Source: Hyphococcus sp. (GTDB taxonomy: Bacteria; Pseudomonadota; Alphaproteobacteria; Caulobacterales; Parvularculaceae). From it: a stretch of DNA of 64,000 nucleotides. The notes below the pieces were generated by a model. That model searched no databases. It worked only from the letters and a program-made list of their open reading frames with translations, and was not told the origin of the DNA. Below, in pieces: positions 2,080 to 57,107 of the stretch. Position numbers and translations under genes: made by a program. Every line of letters starts with the position of its first letter. Position 1 is the stretch's first letter. The DNA lies in assembly GCA_028281665.1 (NCBI GenBank), contig JANQJK010000016.1, positions 62,001-126,000 on the forward strand. The letters are read 5' to 3'.

Positions 2080-2865
2080 TCACCTGATCTGCGTTGTCGC
2101 GCCCATCATCTGATCGGCGGCGGAAATGACTTTGGAATTGAGTTCGTAGCCGCGCTGCGCCTCGATCAATTCAGCGATCTGCTGCACGACATCGACATTC
2201 GACTCTTCAAGGTGGCCCTGGCGCAGCGTCCCGCGGCCATCCTGACCGGGCTGACCTTGCGCCGGCGTGCCCGACGCGGCGGTTTCGCGGTAAAGATTGC
2301 CGCCGAGCGGTTCGAGCCCTTTTTCGTTGGCGAAGGAAGCAAGCGTAAGGGCGCCGATGGACTGTTCGCCCGTCTGCCCCGTGAGCTGCACGAAAATTTC
2401 GCCGTCTGGGTTGATGGTGATGCGGCGGGTATCAAGCGGGATGGTGATGTTGCCGGCGATCGGGAAACCGTCGGCGTTCACGATAACGCCTTCGGAGGAG
2501 CGCTTCAGGGCGCCGTCGCGCGTATACGCGGTCTCGCCGGAGGGAAGCGTTACTTCCAGAAACCCTCGGCCTTCGATCGCGACATCAAGATCGCCGCCCG
2601 TCGCTTTCAGCGTGCCTTGCGACATGTCGACGGAGATCGATGCGGTTTTGACGCCGAGTCCCAGCTGAACCCCTTCCGGCACAACTTCACCGGTCGCCGA
2701 GGAAGAGGCGCCCGCCGCCCGAACAATCTGATAGTGCAGATCGGCGAACTCCGCCCGGCGCGTGCCGTAGGCGGTCGTGTTCATGTTGGCGAGGTTGTTG
2801 GAAATAACCTCCACCCTTTTTTGCTGGGCGTCCATGCCGGTCGCCGCGATGCTTAGTGCGCGCAT
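2080..2865 (-). CDS. flgG: Flagellar distal rod protein FlgG
   Basis: FlgG builds the distal rod of the basal body. The 261 residues match the usual length of about 260. The N-terminal signature of rod/hook proteins is present (VISNNLANMNTTAYG), as is the C-terminal heptad helix (EESNVDVVQQIAELIEAQRG followed by YELNSKVI). A clear ribosome-binding site, GAGGAG, lies 7 bases upstream of the ATG. It follows flgF after 28 bp and precedes flgA by 4 bp. Confidence 0.97.
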   Translation of the reverse strand: MRALSIAATGMDAQQKRVEVISNNLANMNTTAYGTRRAEFADLHYQIVRAAGASSSATGEVVPEGVQLGLGVKTASISVDMSQGTLKATGGDLDVAIEGRGFLEVTLPSGETAYTRDGALKRSSEGVIVNADGFPIAGNITIPLDTRRITINPDGEIFVQLTGQTGEQSIGALTLASFANEKGLEPLGGNLYRETAASGTPAQGQPGQDGRGTLRQGHLEESNVDVVQQIAELIEAQRGYELNSKVISAADQMMGATTQIR

Positions 2866-2893
2866 AATATTCTCCTCATTCTAAGGGCGCGTG

Positions 2894-3613
2894 TTATTGC
2901 GTCTGCCCAAGCGTTCGAACGGTTCGTGAGATCCGTTCATTTTCGTCCTCTGTAAATCGTTTGCTTGCTTCATACGTACGCTGAACTTCTATCAGTCGCG
3001 CCATTTCCTCGATGGCGTTCACATTCGATCCTTCAACAACTCCCTGGCGCACCCGGGCGTCTTCCAGAGCGGTAAATCCGCCCTGGGCCTCAAACAGGTT
3101 GCGGCCCTCGCGCACCAGGCCGGCGGAATCGGCGGTAACGACACCCAGTCTCGCAACAGGCTGCCCGCCGGCGAAGATGGAGCCGTCTTCGGCGACGGTG
3201 ATACTGTTTTGCCCCTGCGGTATCGTGATGGCGCCGCCGCTTTCGTCCAGAATTCGCAATTGCTGCGAGTTCACCAGCTCGCGTTCCGCGTTGAGCGAGA
3301 ACGCGCCGTCGCGGGTCAGGCGTTCGCCGTCCTGCGTTTCGACGAGAAAAAATCCGTCGCCGTCGATCGCAACATCCAGCGGTTCGTTCGTAATGGTGAG
3401 TTCGCCGGCGCTGAGATCGACAAAGCGCCTGCTGAGCGTCGACATGGAAAGGCTCGGGTCTTCGTTTTGCAGTGCTGCAATGTGCTCCGCGAATACGGAG
3501 CCCTCGCGGCGGTAGCCGTTCGTGTTCATATTGGCGAGATTGTTCGCAACCGCCGTGAGTTCGCGTTGCAATCCGATCTGCCGTGACAAGCCTACATAAC
3601 CAGCATTATCCAT
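2894..3613 (-). CDS. flgF: Flagellar proximal rod protein FlgF
   Basis: FlgF is a proximal rod subunit. The protein has 239 residues with the rod-family N-terminal motif VANNLANMNTNGYRR and the C-terminal helix (VEGSNVNAIEEMARLIEVQR, TYEASKRF). The start codon lies 8 bp inside the end of the 770-residue upstream gene, so the two are probably translationally coupled. It is distinguished from FlgG by its shorter length and by its position next to flgG, as is usual for this pair. Confidence 0.94.
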   Translation of the reverse strand: MDNAGYVGLSRQIGLQRELTAVANNLANMNTNGYRREGSVFAEHIAALQNEDPSLSMSTLSRRFVDLSAGELTITNEPLDVAIDGDGFFLVETQDGERLTRDGAFSLNAERELVNSQQLRILDESGGAITIPQGQNSITVAEDGSIFAGGQPVARLGVVTADSAGLVREGRNLFEAQGGFTALEDARVRQGVVEGSNVNAIEEMARLIEVQRTYEASKRFTEDENERISRTVRTLGQTQ

Positions 3614-5918
3614 CGCTCAGGATCTCCTCGAACGCATTGATTTCCTGCGCTGTCGCATCGGAAACCGCTCTTGCCCGTTCCAGCGCCGCGCCGTCTGTGT
3701 TTTTGAGAAAGAGACTGTTCAGGCCGGCCTTGATGGTCGCCGCCTGGTCGGAGAGGGCGGCGTCGACAACGCCCGGTAGTGATGCTTCGCCGCTCATATA
3801 GGCGGTGAGGCCATATCGGATCGCGTCCTTGTCATTGAAGCTGTTCGGATCGATGTTGCGAAATCCGGCGCTGGCCGCCTGCCAGTTTCGCGCCAGCCAC
3901 CCGGCGCGCGATTTCAGGTTCGCGCGGATTTTTTCATCGCTTATGGTCGCCGCCGTTGCGAGGGCGGCGTGATAATTCATTTGCCGGATGTTCGCTTTTG
4001 CGACGAGCGCGCCGAAGGCGGGGTCCGTGGCGTGGGGCGCGGCGAACCGGATGGCGGCGCTTGCATCGCCGGCGGCGAGGGCGGCCGTTGCAAGTTTTTC
4101 GCTTGCGTTGCGGTCGGGCGCGGCGCCGGTTTTCGTCATCAATTCAAGGGATAGGTTCGGCAATCCGGCGTTCAAGGCGACGTCGGCGGCGAGCGTGCGC
4201 AGCTCGCGCCGCGTACCTCTCACATCAATCCAGCTTTCATGAGCGAGGTAGGCTTCCAGCGCCGATGTCTGTAGCAACGCATCTTTGCCCGACAATGCGC
4301 GCATGATCATCGCGCTTGCCGACGCGGCGGCCATTTCGCCGTTGTCCGGCGATTTCGGCGCCTCGTTCTTCAATAGAAGCATCGCAGCGTCGAGATTGCC
4401 CGCCGCGGCCCAGGAATAGGCCTCAAAGAAAGCAGCGCGCGACGACCCGGCGATCTTGGCCAGCGCGCCGATGTCTTCCACAAATCCTTCATGGGGATCG
4501 CCGCCCCGTTCTGTATAAGCCTCCGCCAGCGCGAGCAGCGCTTCGTCCGATGCCGCCGAATCGTCCGTCGCAACCTCAAGAAGGGACTCGCGGGAGGTCT
4601 CGTCTTCCGCATCGTGATCATCGAGGCGCGTTCGAACATATTTGAGTTCCGGAGAAAGCTTCTCGCTGTCGCCGACGGCAATGTCGAACAGGCTCTGGGC
4701 GGCGTCCCACGCTTCAAGGTCCGCCATTTTCACGGCGAGACGCGTGGCGATATGCGTTTTCAGCCGGCTCGGAAGCGTTTCAATCGCGCGGCCGGAACGG
4801 TCATATTCGGCGGCCGCCGTCGGGTCGGGGTTCGCCACGGCCAGCCATAGCGCATGTGCGCCTGAACAGTTTTTTGCGCTGAGCAGCGGTCCTTCCGGGT
4901 CAAGCGGTCGCTCCGCAACAGCGCGCGCAACTTCATACAGCGCCGCGACATCCGCGTTTTTGTCTTTCAGTACAGAGAGCGCCTCCTCACCGAACCCGAT
5001 CGCGAGGAAGCCATTGGCGAGTTTGCGCAGTACGGCCTCCCGTTCGACGCCTGTCGTTTCTCCCAGCCGCACCTGCAACGCCTCAATCTCCACAAGCGGA
5101 TCGTTTTCGAAATCGCTGCCGTCAATGGTCAGATCGTGATCGCTCAAGCATTGGCTCGGCGCCGGAGCCGAAACGGGCGCGGGCGCAGGACCGGAAGCAG
5201 GGCCGGGCAGGGTGTCCGTAGAAGCCCGCAGGATCGATTGCGCCGCCCGCGATGTCGCCGGCGCCGGCGGTTTCTCTTTCTGTTCCGTCGTCGCCGTTTC
5301 CGAGGACGGCTCGCGAAGGGCGTCGCTGTCCGCCGCATCGGCAGTTTCGGTAGCCTCGGCGATGCCCGAGCTTCCATTTGCCGGAGCGCCCTTTAGATTA
5401 ATAAGACCTTCATCTGCGGCCTGCTGGAGCAAATCCATCATCCGGTCGTGCGCCTGCGCGACGGTCAGCGTATCGTCCGCAGCGGCTACGGATTTCCTGG
5501 GCGCGGGTTTCGTCAATTGTGTTGGCTGACGGTCCGCGCGGCGCGCAGTTGAGGCGTCAGGTCCGCCGGCGATGTCGATCACGATTTTTCCGTCCGGGGC
5601 CCGCAGCGACCGAACCGAACAATCGCAGTTCATCCGGAATTCGACTGTGTTGGCGTCCGCTTGGGTCGCGCGATTGACGCGAAACGCCTTTTGCCGGTCG
5701 TTGACGGCGCCGAGGTCGATCTCTGTGGCTGCGCCAATATTCCGTAAACGAATGATACGGCCCGATGTCTCTATTGCCAGACCGGGGTCGCCGCCGGCGA
5801 TGACGATACGCGAGAAATCGCCGTGTTCGCCCGCCGAAATAGCGACGGACGGGTCCGCCGCCAGGGCCGGCGTTGACGCAAGCGCAGCAGCGCTGATGAA
5901 AAACAGCTTTTGCATCAT
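3606..5918 (-). CDS. Large exported helical-repeat protein of the flagellar operon (MotC-like position)
   Basis: Not assigned to a named family with certainty. The 770 residues comprise a signal peptide (1-20, cut near ALA-AD), a beta-rich domain (about 22-120) with a Cys-Asp-Cys motif, a low-complexity Pro/Ala/Ser linker (about 125-260, with PAPAPVSAPAPS) and a long helical region (about 270-770) with Ala-rich TPR-like pairs. Its start overlaps the motA stop by 4 bp and its end overlaps flgF by 8 bp, so it is embedded in the motor operon. With a MotE-like gene two genes upstream, the arrangement resembles rhizobial MotC/MotE, where periplasmic MotC acts with the stator. That role is inferred from position and architecture. 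Confidence 0.55.
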   Translation of the reverse strand: MMQKLFFISAAALASTPALAADPSVAISAGEHGDFSRIVIAGGDPGLAIETSGRIIRLRNIGAATEIDLGAVNDRQKAFRVNRATQADANTVEFRMNCDCSVRSLRAPDGKIVIDIAGGPDASTARRADRQPTQLTKPAPRKSVAAADDTLTVAQAHDRMMDLLQQAADEGLINLKGAPANGSSGIAEATETADAADSDALREPSSETATTEQKEKPPAPATSRAAQSILRASTDTLPGPASGPAPAPVSAPAPSQCLSDHDLTIDGSDFENDPLVEIEALQVRLGETTGVEREAVLRKLANGFLAIGFGEEALSVLKDKNADVAALYEVARAVAERPLDPEGPLLSAKNCSGAHALWLAVANPDPTAAAEYDRSGRAIETLPSRLKTHIATRLAVKMADLEAWDAAQSLFDIAVGDSEKLSPELKYVRTRLDDHDAEDETSRESLLEVATDDSAASDEALLALAEAYTERGGDPHEGFVEDIGALAKIAGSSRAAFFEAYSWAAAGNLDAAMLLLKNEAPKSPDNGEMAAASASAMIMRALSGKDALLQTSALEAYLAHESWIDVRGTRRELRTLAADVALNAGLPNLSLELMTKTGAAPDRNASEKLATAALAAGDASAAIRFAAPHATDPAFGALVAKANIRQMNYHAALATAATISDEKIRANLKSRAGWLARNWQAASAGFRNIDPNSFNDKDAIRYGLTAYMSGEASLPGVVDAALSDQAATIKAGLNSLFLKNTDGAALERARAVSDATAQEINAFEEILSDG

Positions 5919-6873: not shown

Positions 6874-7518
6874 TTATTGCCGGCGCACAGCTGCATTGCG
6901 GCTCGCGATGATGAGACTCGCTTCGTAGGCTTTGTCGGTGTTCATATTCGTTAAAATAAGCGCAGCGTTCTCGCTGTTCATTTGAGTCAGGAAACCGGCA
7001 GCGAAAGTCGGGTCCATTTTGTCAAAAATCTCACCGGCTTTTTGCGGCTTCATCTGTTCGTACATTTTCGACAAGAGGTCGATGTCGTTTTGTGCGGCTT
7101 CATCAGCGAAAGAGACAAGTTCGGATAGGGAAGCATTGCTTTTTTTAAGTTCGACCAGTTTTTCATCAACGCGCGCTTCGATAATTTCCAGATAGCGAAG
7201 CCGATCGTCGAGATCGCTTTCCTTCTGGTCGAGGGCTACATGGCGTTCTCTAAGCGCTTTTAGAAGCCGTTCCTTCTCCAGCGGGTCGTTGAGCGCATCG
7301 GCGAGATCCGCCGTGCGTTCGTCAATGACAGCGGGCGCCTTGCTTTCCGCGGGGGCCATTGTTTTTTCCGCCATCTTCGTCGCCTCTTTTTCAATCGGCG
7401 TCTTTTCGGCGAGTGGTTTGTCGGGCGCATTCAGCGAAGCATCGGCAACGCCGATCATGCGGCCGACAAAGGAACACGCAAAAATCACCGCAATAATGAC
7501 GAGCGGATTTACCTTCAC
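6874..7518 (-). CDS. MotE-like flagellar protein (MgtE N-domain-like C-terminus)
   Basis: MotE proteins are exported or membrane-anchored chaperones of the motor accessory protein MotC in rhizobia, and homologues lie in flagellar clusters of other alphaproteobacteria. This 214-residue protein has an N-terminal hydrophobic anchor (about 6-20), a Glu/Lys-rich linker, a coiled coil (about 85-135, with LDQKESDLDDRLRYLEIIEA) and a C-terminal helical domain (about 145-205) with YEQMKPQKAGEIFDKMDPTF and LTNMNTDKAYEASLI, the pattern of MgtE intracellular N-domains. It overlaps the upstream DUF6468 gene by 4 bp. Confidence 0.72.
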   Translation of the reverse strand: MKVNPLVIIAVIFACSFVGRMIGVADASLNAPDKPLAEKTPIEKEATKMAEKTMAPAESKAPAVIDERTADLADALNDPLEKERLLKALRERHVALDQKESDLDDRLRYLEIIEARVDEKLVELKKSNASLSELVSFADEAAQNDIDLLSKMYEQMKPQKAGEIFDKMDPTFAAGFLTQMNSENAALILTNMNTDKAYEASLIIASRNAAVRRQ

Positions 7519-8075
7519 GCCGCTTCTCCCTTAACAGCGTTATTGTCGTCCACGACAATTGAAACATCGATGGCGCCGCCATCTTCGTCGAAATTCGTCG
7601 CAGGCGGGGCGTCAGTCGGCGCCGGCGTTTCGGTCGGCGAGCCGGTTTCAGCGAGACGGACGGATTCAGAAACGTAAGACGCTTCGAGAGCGTCAAGCAG
7701 TTGATAGGAAATCTCCTGCGCTTCCTTGACATGCGGCGACAGTGTCTCGACGAGGTTCTTTGTCGCCGTTTCCGTTTCCTGCACTGCTGACTGGCTGATT
7801 TCAGTGATCTGTTGCATCAGTTCACGTAATTCAGGGATTTTCTTGTCTGCTTCGGTCAGAAGCTGTTCCAGCGCTGCGGAGTTTTCCGTCGCCGCGTCCT
7901 TTGTCGATGCAATTGCGGTCTGGATTTCCTCCGCCGACTGGGTCAGCGCCACGATGCCGGAGTGGATGCCGTCCTTCGTATTGGTGACGGATTTGATGCG
8001 CGTACTCAGCACCCAGCAGTAAAAACATGCGGCGCCTGTTGCAGCAAGCAGCAGAAAATCGACAATAAGGGCCAT
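7515..8075 (-). CDS. DUF6468-type flagellar cluster membrane protein
   Basis: A 186-residue protein with one N-terminal membrane segment (MALIVDFLLLAATGAACFYC), a helical, probably coiled-coil middle (about 25-125, rich in Glu, Gln and Thr) and a Pro/Thr/Asp-rich tail. This architecture and position (fliL-DUF6468-motE-like-motA) match the DUF6468 family found in alphaproteobacterial flagellar clusters. No molecular function is known to me. The start is supported by AGGAG 7 bases upstream. That ribosome-binding site lies within a small palindrome overlapping the fliL stop codon (8079-8095). Confidence 0.7.
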   Translation of the reverse strand: MALIVDFLLLAATGAACFYCWVLSTRIKSVTNTKDGIHSGIVALTQSAEEIQTAIASTKDAATENSAALEQLLTEADKKIPELRELMQQITEISQSAVQETETATKNLVETLSPHVKEAQEISYQLLDALEASYVSESVRLAETGSPTETPAPTDAPPATNFDEDGGAIDVSIVVDDNNAVKGEAA

Positions 8076-52973: not shown

Positions 52974-54404
52974 ATGCCAGTCGTCATGACCGAAGAGGAG
53001 CAGAATCAACTCACTGCCGCACGCCGGCGCCGAAGAACCCGCAAACGGGGTTTGCGCCGGCTGCGCATGCTGGTGGAAAGCAGCGTCGATCGCGTATTGG
53101 GGCGGTGGGTGGACCCGCTCTCTGCATCGGCCCGGCGCCGGCGAATGGCTGCGCTCAGCCTTGCCCTCGCCATCAATCTTGTGGTCTTCACGCTGATGTC
53201 GCTGTTCGCCCGCGTGCGCATCTGGGTTCCGAACGCGCCCAGCGATACGATCCAGGTCACGCTTGTGGAATGGGAGCGTCCGGAATTTCCCGAGTTGCGC
53301 GATCCGCTCATCGAGGAAGAGCCGGAACCTGAGCCGGAACCTGAGCCAGAACCAGAACCCGAGCCGGAACCGGAGCCAGAGATTATCGAGGAGCCCGAGC
53401 CGGAACCCGAACCCGAACCTGAGCCGGAACCCGAGCCGGAACCGCCTGTCGAACCCGAACCGGAGCCCGAACCCGAGCCGGAACTGGAGCCTGAGCCGGA
53501 ACCCGAAGAGTTGCCGGACCTGACCGGCCTCGATCTCAGTCCCGATCCTGCGCCGGCGCCCGAGGCCCTTGAGCCGGAGCCGCTCATTCCCGATCCCGCG
53601 CCGGCGGCGGAAGACGATCTCTCCTTGCCGGAGCCGGAGGACGAGCCGCTGGAACAGACGCCTGTCGAGGAAGACCCCGAGCCGCTGATTTCCGTGGACC
53701 CGGAACAGGATCTCGATCCGGGCCTTGAAGACATCGTCGCCCCGGAGGATGCGGAAGGCGAAGACGCGGCCGGCGACGAGAACGCCGAGGAGCAACAGGA
53801 TCTGCTTCCCGAGACTGTCGAGCCGCCGGAGGAAGAACTGATCGCCGAAGAAGAAGAGATTACTGGCGACGACATGTTCGATCAGGAGCCGGTCTTTTCG
53901 AGCCGCCGTTTCACATTGCCCCAGGTTGAATTGCCGACCGGCGACATTGCGATCGACCCAGGCTCGTCAGGTGTTGTCGCAATCTTCTGTCCCGAAGAGT
54001 TCGAAGACGCAGACAAGGCCGCAGAATGCGCGGGGCGCACGCAAATCCTGTCCGGATGGCGACCCGGTCAGGGTACGGAGGACTTTTCACGGGCCGAGCA
54101 ATTGCTCCGGCGCGCGCGAACGGCTGGCCAGACCGGTCCCGATCTCGATAAAATTGTTGGTCCTCGATCAGCGCGCCGGATTGACGATCGCGAGCGCATC
54201 AATGCGCTGAAAGATTTCCGCCGCGGCGTAGGCGAGGGCAATGATATCGCGGGAGGGTTCAGCGACAACCTCGCCGGCGACTCGCCCAACGTAGGCGCGC
54301 CTGCCCTTGAACCCACATGGACGTTCCGCGAAGACGGCGAACTCACGCAAAAGGAAATCGAGGAGCTTGAGGAGGCGCTCCGCGAAGCCGAAGAGAACAA
54401 ATGA
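52974..54404 (+). CDS. TonB-like single-span protein with long Glu-Pro repeat
   Basis: A 476-residue protein with a basic cytoplasmic N-terminus (about 1-55), one membrane segment (about 58-78, [20 protein letters not shown]) and a long periplasmic part. A Pro/Glu repeat (about 113-182, runs of EPEPEP) is typical of TonB-type spacers. The C-terminus has two cysteines ([17 protein letters not shown]) and a helical, charged tail. No standard TonB C-terminal domain is evident, so it may be an unusual energy transducer or an envelope-spanning protein. The start could also be the ATG at 52986. It is divergent from purD. Its last 132 bp are repeated at 55137-55268. Confidence 0.65.
53310..53510 (+). 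repeat. Hexameric GAGCCG/GAACCC-type repeat encoding Glu-Pro
   Basis: About 200 bp of imperfect 6-bp repeats with GAR-CCN codon pairs inside the TonB-like gene. Codon variants alternate (gag/gaa, ccg/cca/cct/ccc), so slippage is limited but possible; in-frame length change would only alter spacer length. The opposite strand reads as Ser-Gly repeats, a consequence of the repeat rather than a gene. Confidence 0.85.
54273..54404 (+). repeat. Direct repeat copy A: 3' end of the TonB-like gene
   Basis: The last 44 codons (including stop) of the TonB-like gene. It pairs with copy B at 55137-55268 in the same orientation at about 94% identity by manual count. Copy A is the functional gene end and is followed at once by a hairpin at 54402-54427. 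Confidence 0.9.
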
Positions 54405-54427
54405 CGGCGCGCCGCGGAGCGCCGTCA
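54402..54427. terminator. Hairpin at the end of the TonB-like gene
   Basis: TGACGGCGC pairs with GCGCCGTCA (9 bp) over an 8-base loop. The stem begins with the gene's own TGA stop codon. It lies between the convergent TonB-like and orphan genes, and the second repeat copy lacks it. Confidence 0.5.
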
Positions 54428-54432
54428 GTTGA

Positions 54433-55014
54433 CTAAAAACGGCGCCAGACCGGTTCGGCGCGATCATCAAGCAGTATGGGTTCGCAGACGCTCCTGACGC
54501 CGGACAGTTGCGCAGCGGCATTCTCTAACTTGGCAACGGTTTCGTCGAAATTTTCCGGATTTGGGTAATCGTAACCGCGATATGGCCCCAGAGAACTTAC
54601 GGCGTCTTCGATTGCTTCATATCCTATCGAAGTATTCTCTGCTTCAGAAAAAAATAAACTTCCAATATCGACAAAGTTCTGAAGGCGGCTGACGGCTAAA
54701 TTTGCATTGCCTAAGAACCTTCGCTCGGCTGTGCTGCGAAACCTGGCCTCGTCTACGCCGCTGTCATCGTCAGAAAGTTCCTGATATCTAAGCATATCAT
54801 CGATCATGGCTTGGGTATGTCGCTGCAACGTTTGTTCGGAGTCTTTGGTGACTCTGCCCAGTTCAGAGAGCGACGTAATCAAATTCCGGCAATTGTTGAT
54901 CCTTGAATAATCTCTTTGCGAAACCTCACGTCCGCCGTCTCGCCAGATTAAGTAAGCCTGCGCCGACGCTGCAATCGCTGCAATTGACGCAAGTATCACT
55001 GCAAACATTTTCAT
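54433..55014 (-). CDS. Orphan membrane-anchored protein in the inserted segment
   Basis: Not recognised. The 193-residue protein starts at ATG 55014 (an upstream in-frame start at 55062 is less likely). It has an N-terminal membrane anchor or signal (about 3-22, MFAVILASIAAIAASAQAYL) followed by a helical, charged body with short coiled stretches (about 45-130) and two cysteines (NCRNL and VCEPIL). Its DNA is visibly more AT-rich than its neighbours, with codons such as ata, tta and aaa, which suggests recent transfer. It lies between the two copies of the TonB-like gene end (54273 and 55137), facing the TonB-like gene. Confidence 0.6.
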   Translation of the reverse strand: MKMFAVILASIAAIAASAQAYLIWRDGGREVSQRDYSRINNCRNLITSLSELGRVTKDSEQTLQRHTQAMIDDMLRYQELSDDDSGVDEARFRSTAERRFLGNANLAVSRLQNFVDIGSLFFSEAENTSIGYEAIEDAVSSLGPYRGYDYPNPENFDETVAKLENAAAQLSGVRSVCEPILLDDRAEPVWRRF

Positions 55015-55136
55015 TATGACGCCCCACCGATGACTCCCGATAAAACAATAATTGCCGGCCAAATGATTGGCAAGTATTTGTCATCTGAAATGAATTGAAA
55101 GTGGTTTAGCAGGTGAATACGGGGCTGCTTGATTGC

Positions 55137-55268
55137 GCCGACGATTCGCCCAATGTGGGCGCGCCTGCCCTTGAACCCACATGGACGTTCCGCGAGGACG
55201 GTGAACTCACGCAAAAGGAAATCGAGTAGCTTGAGGAGGCGCTCCGCGAAGCCGAAGAGAACAAATAA
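55137..55268 (+). pseudogene. Direct repeat copy B: displaced 3' end of the TonB-like gene
   Basis: Forty-four codons matching the end of the TonB-like gene. Differences against copy A are: one Gly-to-Asp change at the left edge, five synonymous third-base changes (gac/gat, aac/aat, gta/gtg, gaa/gag, ggc/ggt), one nonsense change (gag to tag at 55227-55229) and a different stop (taa). It has no start or upstream coding sequence. The pattern indicates that the two copies diverged while coding, followed by loss of function of copy B. Confidence 0.85.
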
Positions 55269-55313
55269 ATGTGTCCCGGGCTCGCCCCGCGCGAACCCGG
55301 AAAGAAAGAAACG

Positions 55314-57107
55314 TTAGAGCTGGCTCAGCGACGGCGTTACCTTTTTGTGACCAAGCCAGGCGTCCTTGAAGAGTTTGCCGGCGTATTTGGCGCCGTTTTT
55401 GTCGCCTTGCCGCTTATAGGCTTCTGAGAGGCCGTAAAGCACGAACGCATTGTTTGGCGACTCTGTCAGCGCTTCCAGGAACAATTGTTCGCCGCGTTCC
55501 GTATCGCCTTTCTCGACAAGCATCGCCGCGAGGGTCTGCTTCGCGGGATAGTACCAATAAGGCGGTTCCGTATAGGCGATCTGGTCCTGAATGCCGACGG
55601 CGCCCTCCATGGCCTCAATCGCCGTGTCGAACTTGTCTTCCGCCGCTGCGGCGCGCGCGGTGACGGTAAGGTGCGCGATGTTCAGGATATCCAGCGCCGG
55701 CACGCCATTATCCGTAAGGCTCGAAAGGTCTTCATTCGTGACGATCGAAGCGATGGCTTCCGCTTCCCCATAGGCGCCGGCGGCGTCGCCTTTTTTGGCC
55801 AGCGCCTCGCCGCGTGCGTAATGCCAGGCGCCGATGAGATACGGGAACGCTGTATCGGGTTTTTCCAGCGCGAGGATATCGTCAGGGTCGCCGAACTGCG
55901 CCATCGCGTAATAGGGCGCTGCTTTGATCGGTTGAACGAAGGGCGCGGCGCTCGCCATTTCGATGGGGAGTTTCTCGTCAAGGCGCGCCGCCATAGCGAG
56001 TGCTGTTTCGCCATCGCCCGCCATCTGCGCGGACGTCATCGCGAAATGAATGTTGTGGGTATAGTAGCCGAACTCATAAAGAATGCTCGCGTCGTTGCTC
56101 TCAAGATAGGCCGTGTCGACGGCGACGGCCCTGATGTTGTGATCAAGCGACTGCTTGAACCGACCGATGCGGTAATAAGTGTGCGACGGCATATGAATAA
56201 GATGGCCGAGGCCCGGCGTCAGGTCTGCAAGACGATCCGCATGGTCCGCGGCGCGATAAGGGTCCTGCGACGCTTCGGTGATATGAATATAGAGATGGAT
56301 TGACGCCGTATGCAGCGGGTTGCGGGCGATCACCCCTTCGAGCAGCGAGACGGTGCGCGCGGTCCGTCCTTTCGGCGTCCGTCCGCCGTCTTCCCAGTAA
56401 TCCCAGGGCTGCGTGTCCATATTGGCTTCCGCGGCAAGCGCTGCGATGAAATCGTCTTCCGGATATTGCAGGGCCACCGCGTCCATGGCGTCGGCGAACG
56501 CGTTGTCGAGTTTTGAACGGTCCTCCACGGGGCCTTCTTCATAGCGATAGTTGAGCGCGTCGATCAGCGCCTGTTCTTTTTCGCTGGCGCCGCTTTTGGC
56601 GGCGTTGGCTTTTTGCAGCGCGGCCCAGGCTGGCGCGACCGCGTCAGGGAAAAACGGCGCATTGATGTTCGGCCCGTGGGCGAAGGCTTCGCCCCAGTAA
56701 CACATGGCGCAGTCGGGATCGGCGGCTTGTGCTTTCTGAAACGATTTTATCGCTTCGCCGTGATTGAAGTTATAGGTGTGCGCAAGCCCCTGGTTGAACC
56801 ATGACTGCGCTTCGGCGTTGGCGGTGGTGACCGAATAGCTGATCTCGCCGAGGGTCGAGTTCAATTCATTTGACGGTTTGATCGTCGGCGCGGTCGCCTC
56901 GGCGTAAGCGGATGCGGCGCGCACGAAAAACTGCCGGCGCTTGGCGAGTTCATCCTCGCCATTGCCGCAAAGAAATCGGGCGACTGCCAGTGGATGAACG
57001 AAGGGCGCGGCGTTCGTCTCATTCGAATCGACGGAAGAAATGCTGAAGCTTGCGCCGGTGAGGATCATTGCGCCTGCGGCGACGCCGGCCAGTAACTTGA
57101 GTTTCAT
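55314..57107 (-). CDS. Exported TPR-repeat protein
   Basis: A 597-residue protein with a signal peptide (about 1-25) and a helical-repeat body. One TPR-like pair is clear at AQSWFNQGLAHTYNFNHGEA followed by IKSFQKAQAADPDCAMCYWG, and more occur near the C-terminus (LFLEALTESPNNAFVLYGLS). The middle has conserved-looking HTASIHLYIHITEASQDPYR and HLIHMPSHTYYRIGRFKQSL with many histidines, seen in a common but uncharacterised family of secreted TPR proteins. The ribosome-binding site GAGGAAGG precedes the ATG. Function is unknown. Confidence 0.72.
   Translation of the reverse strand: MKLKLLAGVAAGAMILTGASFSISSVDSNETNAAPFVHPLAVARFLCGNGEDELAKRRQFFVRAASAYAEATAPTIKPSNELNSTLGEISYSVTTANAEAQSWFNQGLAHTYNFNHGEAIKSFQKAQAADPDCAMCYWGEAFAHGPNINAPFFPDAVAPAWAALQKANAAKSGASEKEQALIDALNYRYEEGPVEDRSKLDNAFADAMDAVALQYPEDDFIAALAAEANMDTQPWDYWEDGGRTPKGRTARTVSLLEGVIARNPLHTASIHLYIHITEASQDPYRAADHADRLADLTPGLGHLIHMPSHTYYRIGRFKQSLDHNIRAVAVDTAYLESNDASILYEFGYYTHNIHFAMTSAQMAGDGETALAMAARLDEKLPIEMASAAPFVQPIKAAPYYAMAQFGDPDDILALEKPDTAFPYLIGAWHYARGEALAKKGDAAGAYGEAEAIASIVTNEDLSSLTDNGVPALDILNIAHLTVTARAAAAEDKFDTAIEAMEGAVGIQDQIAYTEPPYWYYPAKQTLAAMLVEKGDTERGEQLFLEALTESPNNAFVLYGLSEAYKRQGDKNGAKYAGKLFKDAWLGHKKVTPSLSQL

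Follow-up and report, generated by a model that had tools for sequence, protein, structure and literature searches.

How does the end of a gene come to stand twice in a bacterial chromosome, with a single orphan gene between the two copies? The question is raised by a locus in a Parvularculaceae genome (G000; 3.35 Mb, 28 contigs), of which we analyzed a stretch of 64,000 nucleotides, here called the window. A first-pass annotation had interpreted the arrangement as the remains of a mobile element that carried its own version of a gene end. We therefore examined the repeat, its flanks, the orphan gene and the corresponding loci of related genomes.

The end of a TonB-like gene is repeated beyond an orphan gene

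A TonB-like gene with a proline-glutamate repeat occupies positions 52974-54404 of the plus strand. It shows weak NCBIfam TonB matches over the proline-rich part, and the Pfam TonB_C domain was not found in it. The last 131 bp of this gene, through the first base of the stop codon (54272-54402, plus strand, copy A), are intact and in frame, and they recur as a direct repeat 864 bp downstream (55136-55266, plus strand, copy B). The spacing agrees with the first-pass annotation; the length had been given as 132 bp, whereas the gapless homology starts at 54272 and position 54403 is already mismatched. Both copies are identical at 124 of 131 positions (94.7%). Comparison over 43 codons revealed seven differences, six of them transitions: five are synonymous, one changes Gly to Asp at the second compared codon, near the left edge of the repeat, and one changes GAG to TAG, which places an in-frame nonsense codon in copy B. 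In this respect the earlier description, an intact copy A and a copy B with five synonymous changes, an edge substitution and a nonsense codon, was accurate. The stop codons are TGA in copy A and TAA in copy B.

Copy B is truncated at its 5' end, where the homology ends abruptly at 55136; on the right, homology runs up to the stop codon. Beyond a convergent spacer of 45 bp (55269-55313), which holds a terminator-like hairpin at 55274-55302, copy B adjoins its apparently native right-hand neighbor, a conserved TPR-repeat gene on the minus strand (55314-57107). Self-BLAST of the window (plus strand, 40 bp or more, E 1e-4) returned the A/B repeat as the only direct pair in 64 kb, besides one within the proline-glutamate repeat of the TonB-like gene (E 8e-53). 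An assembly artefact was considered and rejected. The longest identical run between the copies, read from the positions of the differences, is 39 bp; k-mers above 39 are unique and an artefact is therefore unlikely.

Between the copies lie one hairpin and one gene. The hairpin (54402-54427) is situated between convergent gene ends and is terminator-like on the minus strand. The orphan gene runs on the minus strand from an ATG at 55014 to a stop at 54433 and encodes 193 aa. It is followed toward copy B by an AT-rich upstream region (55015-55135), at whose border we place a putative illegitimate joint (55135/55136). With a GC content of 49% for the ORF against 60% for the window, the gene is indeed AT-richer, as noted before together with the hairpin after copy A. 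Elsewhere in the window, an ARAGORN tRNA call at 4025-4115 was discarded, being without Rfam support at gathering score.

A related species has an empty site

G001, which is another species, has no insert at this site; its one gene end is followed by a 51-bp spacer and then by the TPR gene. This is the uninterrupted gene end that the first-pass annotation had proposed to look for in relatives. The window aligns from copy B rightward (55135-56759) as one block, with 79% identity, to the G001 gene end and TPR gene. The distance from stop codon to TPR gene in the window is 45 bp from copy B and 909 bp from copy A, and copy A sits in the native gene on its left. Since G001 has a single gene end directly before the spacer and the TPR gene, the hairpin and the orphan gene, together with one of the two gene ends, are an insertion.

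The non-coding flanks of both copies were compared at equal length with those of relatives, counting the shuffles out of 2000 that reached the observed score. Against the 51 bp adjoining the TPR gene in G014, no shuffle reached the score of the copy B spacer, but 1003 reached that of the copy A flank. Against the G001 spacer the counts were 54 for copy B and 107 for copy A, and against the 51 bp that directly follow the gene in G014 they were 421 and 1515. The contrast is thus clear only against the TPR side of G014 and weak against G001. Contiguity with the TPR gene and the G014 match point to a native right side of copy B; because the G001 comparison separates the flanks poorly, this assignment rests mainly on the contiguity.

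The interval between the TonB-like and TPR genes is variable

The TonB-like gene was matched in 34 of the 60 genomes searched, own genome counted, with 35 matches outside it. Loci were fetched for 20 of these 35, and both neighbors are kept in 15 of them (14 genomes, as G014 has two loci). The TPR gene is absent from the fetched stretch in the other five; L042 and L044 reach a contig end within ~1 kb and L047 within ~5 kb, and L043 and L053 have no TPR gene in ~9 kb of sequence. Spacers at the 15 loci range from 51 to 1933 bp and hold unrelated cargo. Pfam supports a GIY-YIG domain (G014), an amino-acid permease (G013) and a molybdopterin oxidoreductase (G008), while a 126-aa ORF (G015) and 68-aa ORFs (G009, G022) are without Pfam support. 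Six loci are in effect empty, with spacers of 51-200 bp (G001, G016, G021, G020, G018 and the second G014 locus), and three spacers lack a standout gene (G003, 385 bp; G026, 576 bp; G019, 875 bp). Other cargo at the same site, which had been suggested as a check, is therefore present in other species.

The two G014 loci are different purD - TonB-like - TPR arrangements, L035 on C15 and L036 on C6. Their purD proteins are 87% and 74% identical to that of the window, and their TPR proteins 90% and 77%. They may represent a second old copy, a transfer or a mixed bin.

Self-BLAST of 17 loci together with the window showed that the window alone has a pair involving the TonB-like gene end. Of the 15 loci with both neighbors, 13 were included in this self-comparison and showed no duplicated end; the other two (L037, L050) have spacers of 51 and 53 bp. 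Pairs in L038, L040, L045, L049, L051 and L054 fall, judged by position, in the repeat region of the TonB-like gene, upstream of its conserved C-terminal part. In L035 the GIY-YIG cargo is flanked by an imperfect pair (99 columns, 71%) that looks like palindromic repeats; the locus also has a 47-bp pair. No direct pairs were detected in L036, L039, L041, L046, L048, L052, L065 and L067. Away from the studied gene end, L053 (G002) carries a tandem pair of 507 bp with 87% identity at 2670-3697.

The orphan gene belongs to a small family with other genomic contexts

Homologues of the orphan protein were found in three of 61 other genomes of the family, G009 (32%), G074 (29%) and G029 (26%). Among 385 sampled genomes of the class, G000 alone had a match, and a profile search of 398 genomes of the order returned the same four genomes. 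Relatives were not found in IMG/VR viral contigs, in a search reaching close relatives only, nor in plasmids or phages, and plasmids gave no DNA match. Pfam, NCBIfam and PADLOC contained no family match. Accordingly, the statement that no recombinase fits in the 864 bp agrees with our data, the single gene of the insert being without family match. PHROGs returned weak matches (E 0.16 for the window orphan; for two homologues, 0.1 and 0.087 at best), and the lowest E among PDB profile matches was 0.059; both were taken as chance.

Aligned with one another, the four proteins share a conserved hydrophobic segment at the N terminus, and two cysteines, C43 and C178, are invariant. The structure predicted from this four-sequence alignment is all-helical and moderately confident (pLDDT 77.9, pTM 0.70), with an N-terminal hydrophobic helix and a helical domain. 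The protein thus reads as membrane-anchored or secreted. Foldseek against the PDB gave nothing at E 0.001 or better, and we consequently make no fold claim; the best, non-significant matches (E 0.11 at best) were helical bundles, OspC and the Tar sensor domain among them.

In G009 and G029 the homologue is located between the genes for the NADH dehydrogenase 49-kDa subunit and the 2Fe-2S thioredoxin-like subunit, which we take to be nuoD and nuoE. A TonB_C-domain gene lies near it in G009, and G029 has a match just under the TonB_C cut-off. In G074 the homologue adjoins a thioesterase gene. The first-pass annotation had raised the prospect of the orphan at other 3'-end insertions, and this was not borne out: no duplicated gene end was seen beside the three other copies, loci L065 and L067 have no direct pair of 40 bp or more, and L066 has only a tandem array. 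A move of the orphan gene from the nuoD-nuoE interval was also considered. The interval holds no orphan in G000, G001, G014 and G020 (G004 has no nuoD in the fetched stretch and G018 no nuoE match), and we found no link between the two sites.

The nuoD-nuoE interval is itself another variable spot. It ranges from ~0.9 to 2.9 kb and differs in content (L065, L066, L076-L078, L080), with TonB_C-type genes in some genomes. The tandem repeats of L066 (G029), with units of ~97-103 bp, lie within this interval at 7454-8037, beside the orphan homologue.

Copies A and B form a sister pair among the sampled orthologues

For the repeated stretch (129 nt), a tree was built from both copies together with orthologues, 22 of the 35 being included. 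It joins A and B as sisters at a support of 0.97, closer to each other than to any of the 22 orthologues, with branch lengths of 0.022 (A) and 0.041 (B). The nearest orthologue, from the first G014 locus, is identical to A at 105 and to B at 103 of 129 positions. Polarized by the relatives, B has changed at the Gly/Asp, GGC/GGT and nonsense codons, and A appears changed at an AAC/AAT codon. As closest relatives, A and B should therefore stem from one species or from an unsampled sister. The first-pass annotation had named a grouping of A and B as a recent local duplication among the results that would speak against its reading. The sisterhood partly agrees with that, though it is also what a donor from the same species would produce.

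We further asked how the synonymous differences compare with expectation, using a transition bias of 1-8 and an omega of 0-0.1. For a local duplication with A constrained and B free, the expected synonymous share is 0.35-0.46, and five or more of seven have a P of 0.05-0.16. With both copies free, P is 0.008-0.027. The first-pass annotation had taken the synonymous bias to mean that the ends diverged in separate functional genes. The data lean in this direction, but less strongly than stated; at the level of codon comparison the bias is only suggestive of separate functional histories of A and B.

Recombination with DNA of a close relative as the preferred explanation

On balance, we slightly favor a homology-anchored recombination with DNA of a close relative that ended in a non-homologous right joint, at a spot resembling a minimal mobile element; this reading takes donor and recipient alleles together from one genome. 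The donor would have been a segment of the same or a sister species with the orphan gene after its TonB-like gene, and the recipient a chromosome in which the TonB-like gene directly faced the TPR gene. A homologous crossover inside or upstream of the TonB-like gene would have formed the left side, leaving the gene complete and with the end of the donor as copy A. On the right, the incoming DNA would have been joined without homology 131 bp before the stop of the resident gene (55135/55136), and the resident end would have stayed as the 5'-truncated remnant, copy B, which may since have gained its stop codon. Because the resident end between joint and stop simply stays, no backward copying is needed. 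The reverse polarity, with copy B and the TPR side incoming, would be equally possible. A meeting of two alleles whose non-coding flanks are unrelated would place the right edge of homology at the stop codon, where it is found.

We count for this explanation the block alignment of copy B and the TPR gene to G001, the spacer match to G014, the unrelated cargo at the spot, the five synonymous among seven differences and the fact that both the A and the B branch have length. Genes of the ComEC and DprA families are present in G000 and permit natural transformation; they do not show competence, because both families match the E. coli controls too. Ku had been considered for the joint, and no match was found in the G000 genome, which we also count in favor of the recombination. 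Against it we count that both alleles are read from one genome, that the synonymous bias also fits an old local duplication, that A and B are sisters, that the flank scores against G001 are nearly equal and that the copy B spacer shows no resemblance to the sequence following the gene in G014.

The event would belong to homology-facilitated illegitimate recombination, with two convergent conserved genes enclosing a permissive spot. The non-homologous joint in this type of recombination often shows microhomology. In the literature, the process has been described for three competent species as well as for conjugation in E. coli (PMC3240628), a similar insertion with the effector 3' end shifted back was proposed for Vibrio cholerae T6SS arrays (PMC5361080), and illegitimate recombination aided by homology is presented as a source of small variable segments (PMC2884548). 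Like in these cases, one homologous side and one non-homologous joint would explain an insertion with a resident end left behind; the gene is intact and in frame through copy A, and homology stops abruptly at 55136. Unlike in these cases, donor, recipient and joint are deduced here and the cargo is one orphan gene. Hotspots without integrases, with recombination at flanking core genes, have been described (PMC5635113), and the spot also resembles minimal mobile elements as defined in PMC3082526: two conserved genes, kept as a pair at 15 of 20 loci, enclose differing cassettes with no mobility gene in the insert. The variation seen here is one between species.

A local duplication, in which the end was copied within the same chromosome when the orphan inserted and A then stayed under selection while B was free, is rather unlikely in our view. 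It would account for the grouping of A and B among the 22 orthologues and for both amino-acid-changing differences lying in B, and the five synonymous differences are compatible with it. However, the synonymous share exceeds the expected one, and there is no evident mechanism for copying 131 bp. We regard as similarly improbable the single crossover, within the shared 131 bp, of a small circle consisting of the TonB-like gene end and the orphan, that is, an insertion with long target duplication. Such a crossover yields the same structure, and insertions of this type are described for Helicobacter pylori (PMC1643837, PMC4978471), where, according to the former source, the insert lies between long direct repeats and the empty form is single-copy. 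The window likewise has long direct repeats around the insert (131 bp, 94.7%), and a single-copy empty allele exists in G001, although in another species. In contrast to H. pylori, the copies differ by 5% and the cargo is without restriction-modification family match. The circle would moreover have to bear a 131-bp gene-end fragment, the homology is short and diverged given its longest identical run, and neither viral contigs, plasmids nor phages yielded orphan relatives.

An integrative element that brought its own gene 3' end to restore the reading frame, and that has decayed or was mobilized in trans, is very doubtful. The restored gene end, the AT-rich cargo and the duplicated ends would suit it. 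However, the insert has no recombinase, its one gene being without family match where an integrase would be expected, and the viral, phage and plasmid collections hold no relative. Recurrence at gene ends is likewise lacking, as three of 61 genomes have an orphan homologue and none is so placed, and other cargo occurs at the spot without a duplicated gene end. Of the original interpretation, the insertion and the remnant nature of copy B hold, while the element is not supported. Equally far-fetched is the idea of an integrase-less cassette with the orphan family as its cargo, which would carry along a copy of a host gene's 3' end, serving as both homology anchor and repair patch, and could be excised through A/B recombination; there is no need for such an element. 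The insertion is real and ordinary in kind, most likely a trace of DNA exchange with a close relative, and a new kind of mobile element is not called for. It is of interest as a readable footprint of how a single-gene insertion can reach a bacterial chromosome without a mobile element; the resident gene end that stayed behind would then indicate where the non-homologous joint lies. The locus also provides an example, from the Parvularculaceae, of variable content between two convergent genes.

Solitary GIY-YIG genes are flanked by palindromic motifs

Solitary GIY-YIG genes, such as the cargo of G014 (L035, 4349-4612), gave 20 matches (loci L087-L106), distributed over all eight genomes of the genus searched. 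REP-like palindrome motifs lie within 300 bp on both sides in 13 of 18 full-length GIY-YIG loci and in one of 30 control loci, compared with 0.12 motifs per 300 bp elsewhere in the same GIY-YIG loci; this count is biased, because the motifs were picked after two spacers had been seen. The association resembles the RAYT/REP type, with another nuclease family. Among the literature matches listed, by their titles and abstract starts, no report of GIY-YIG genes with REP-like motifs was found. These palindrome-flanked genes may be of more interest than the duplicated gene end.
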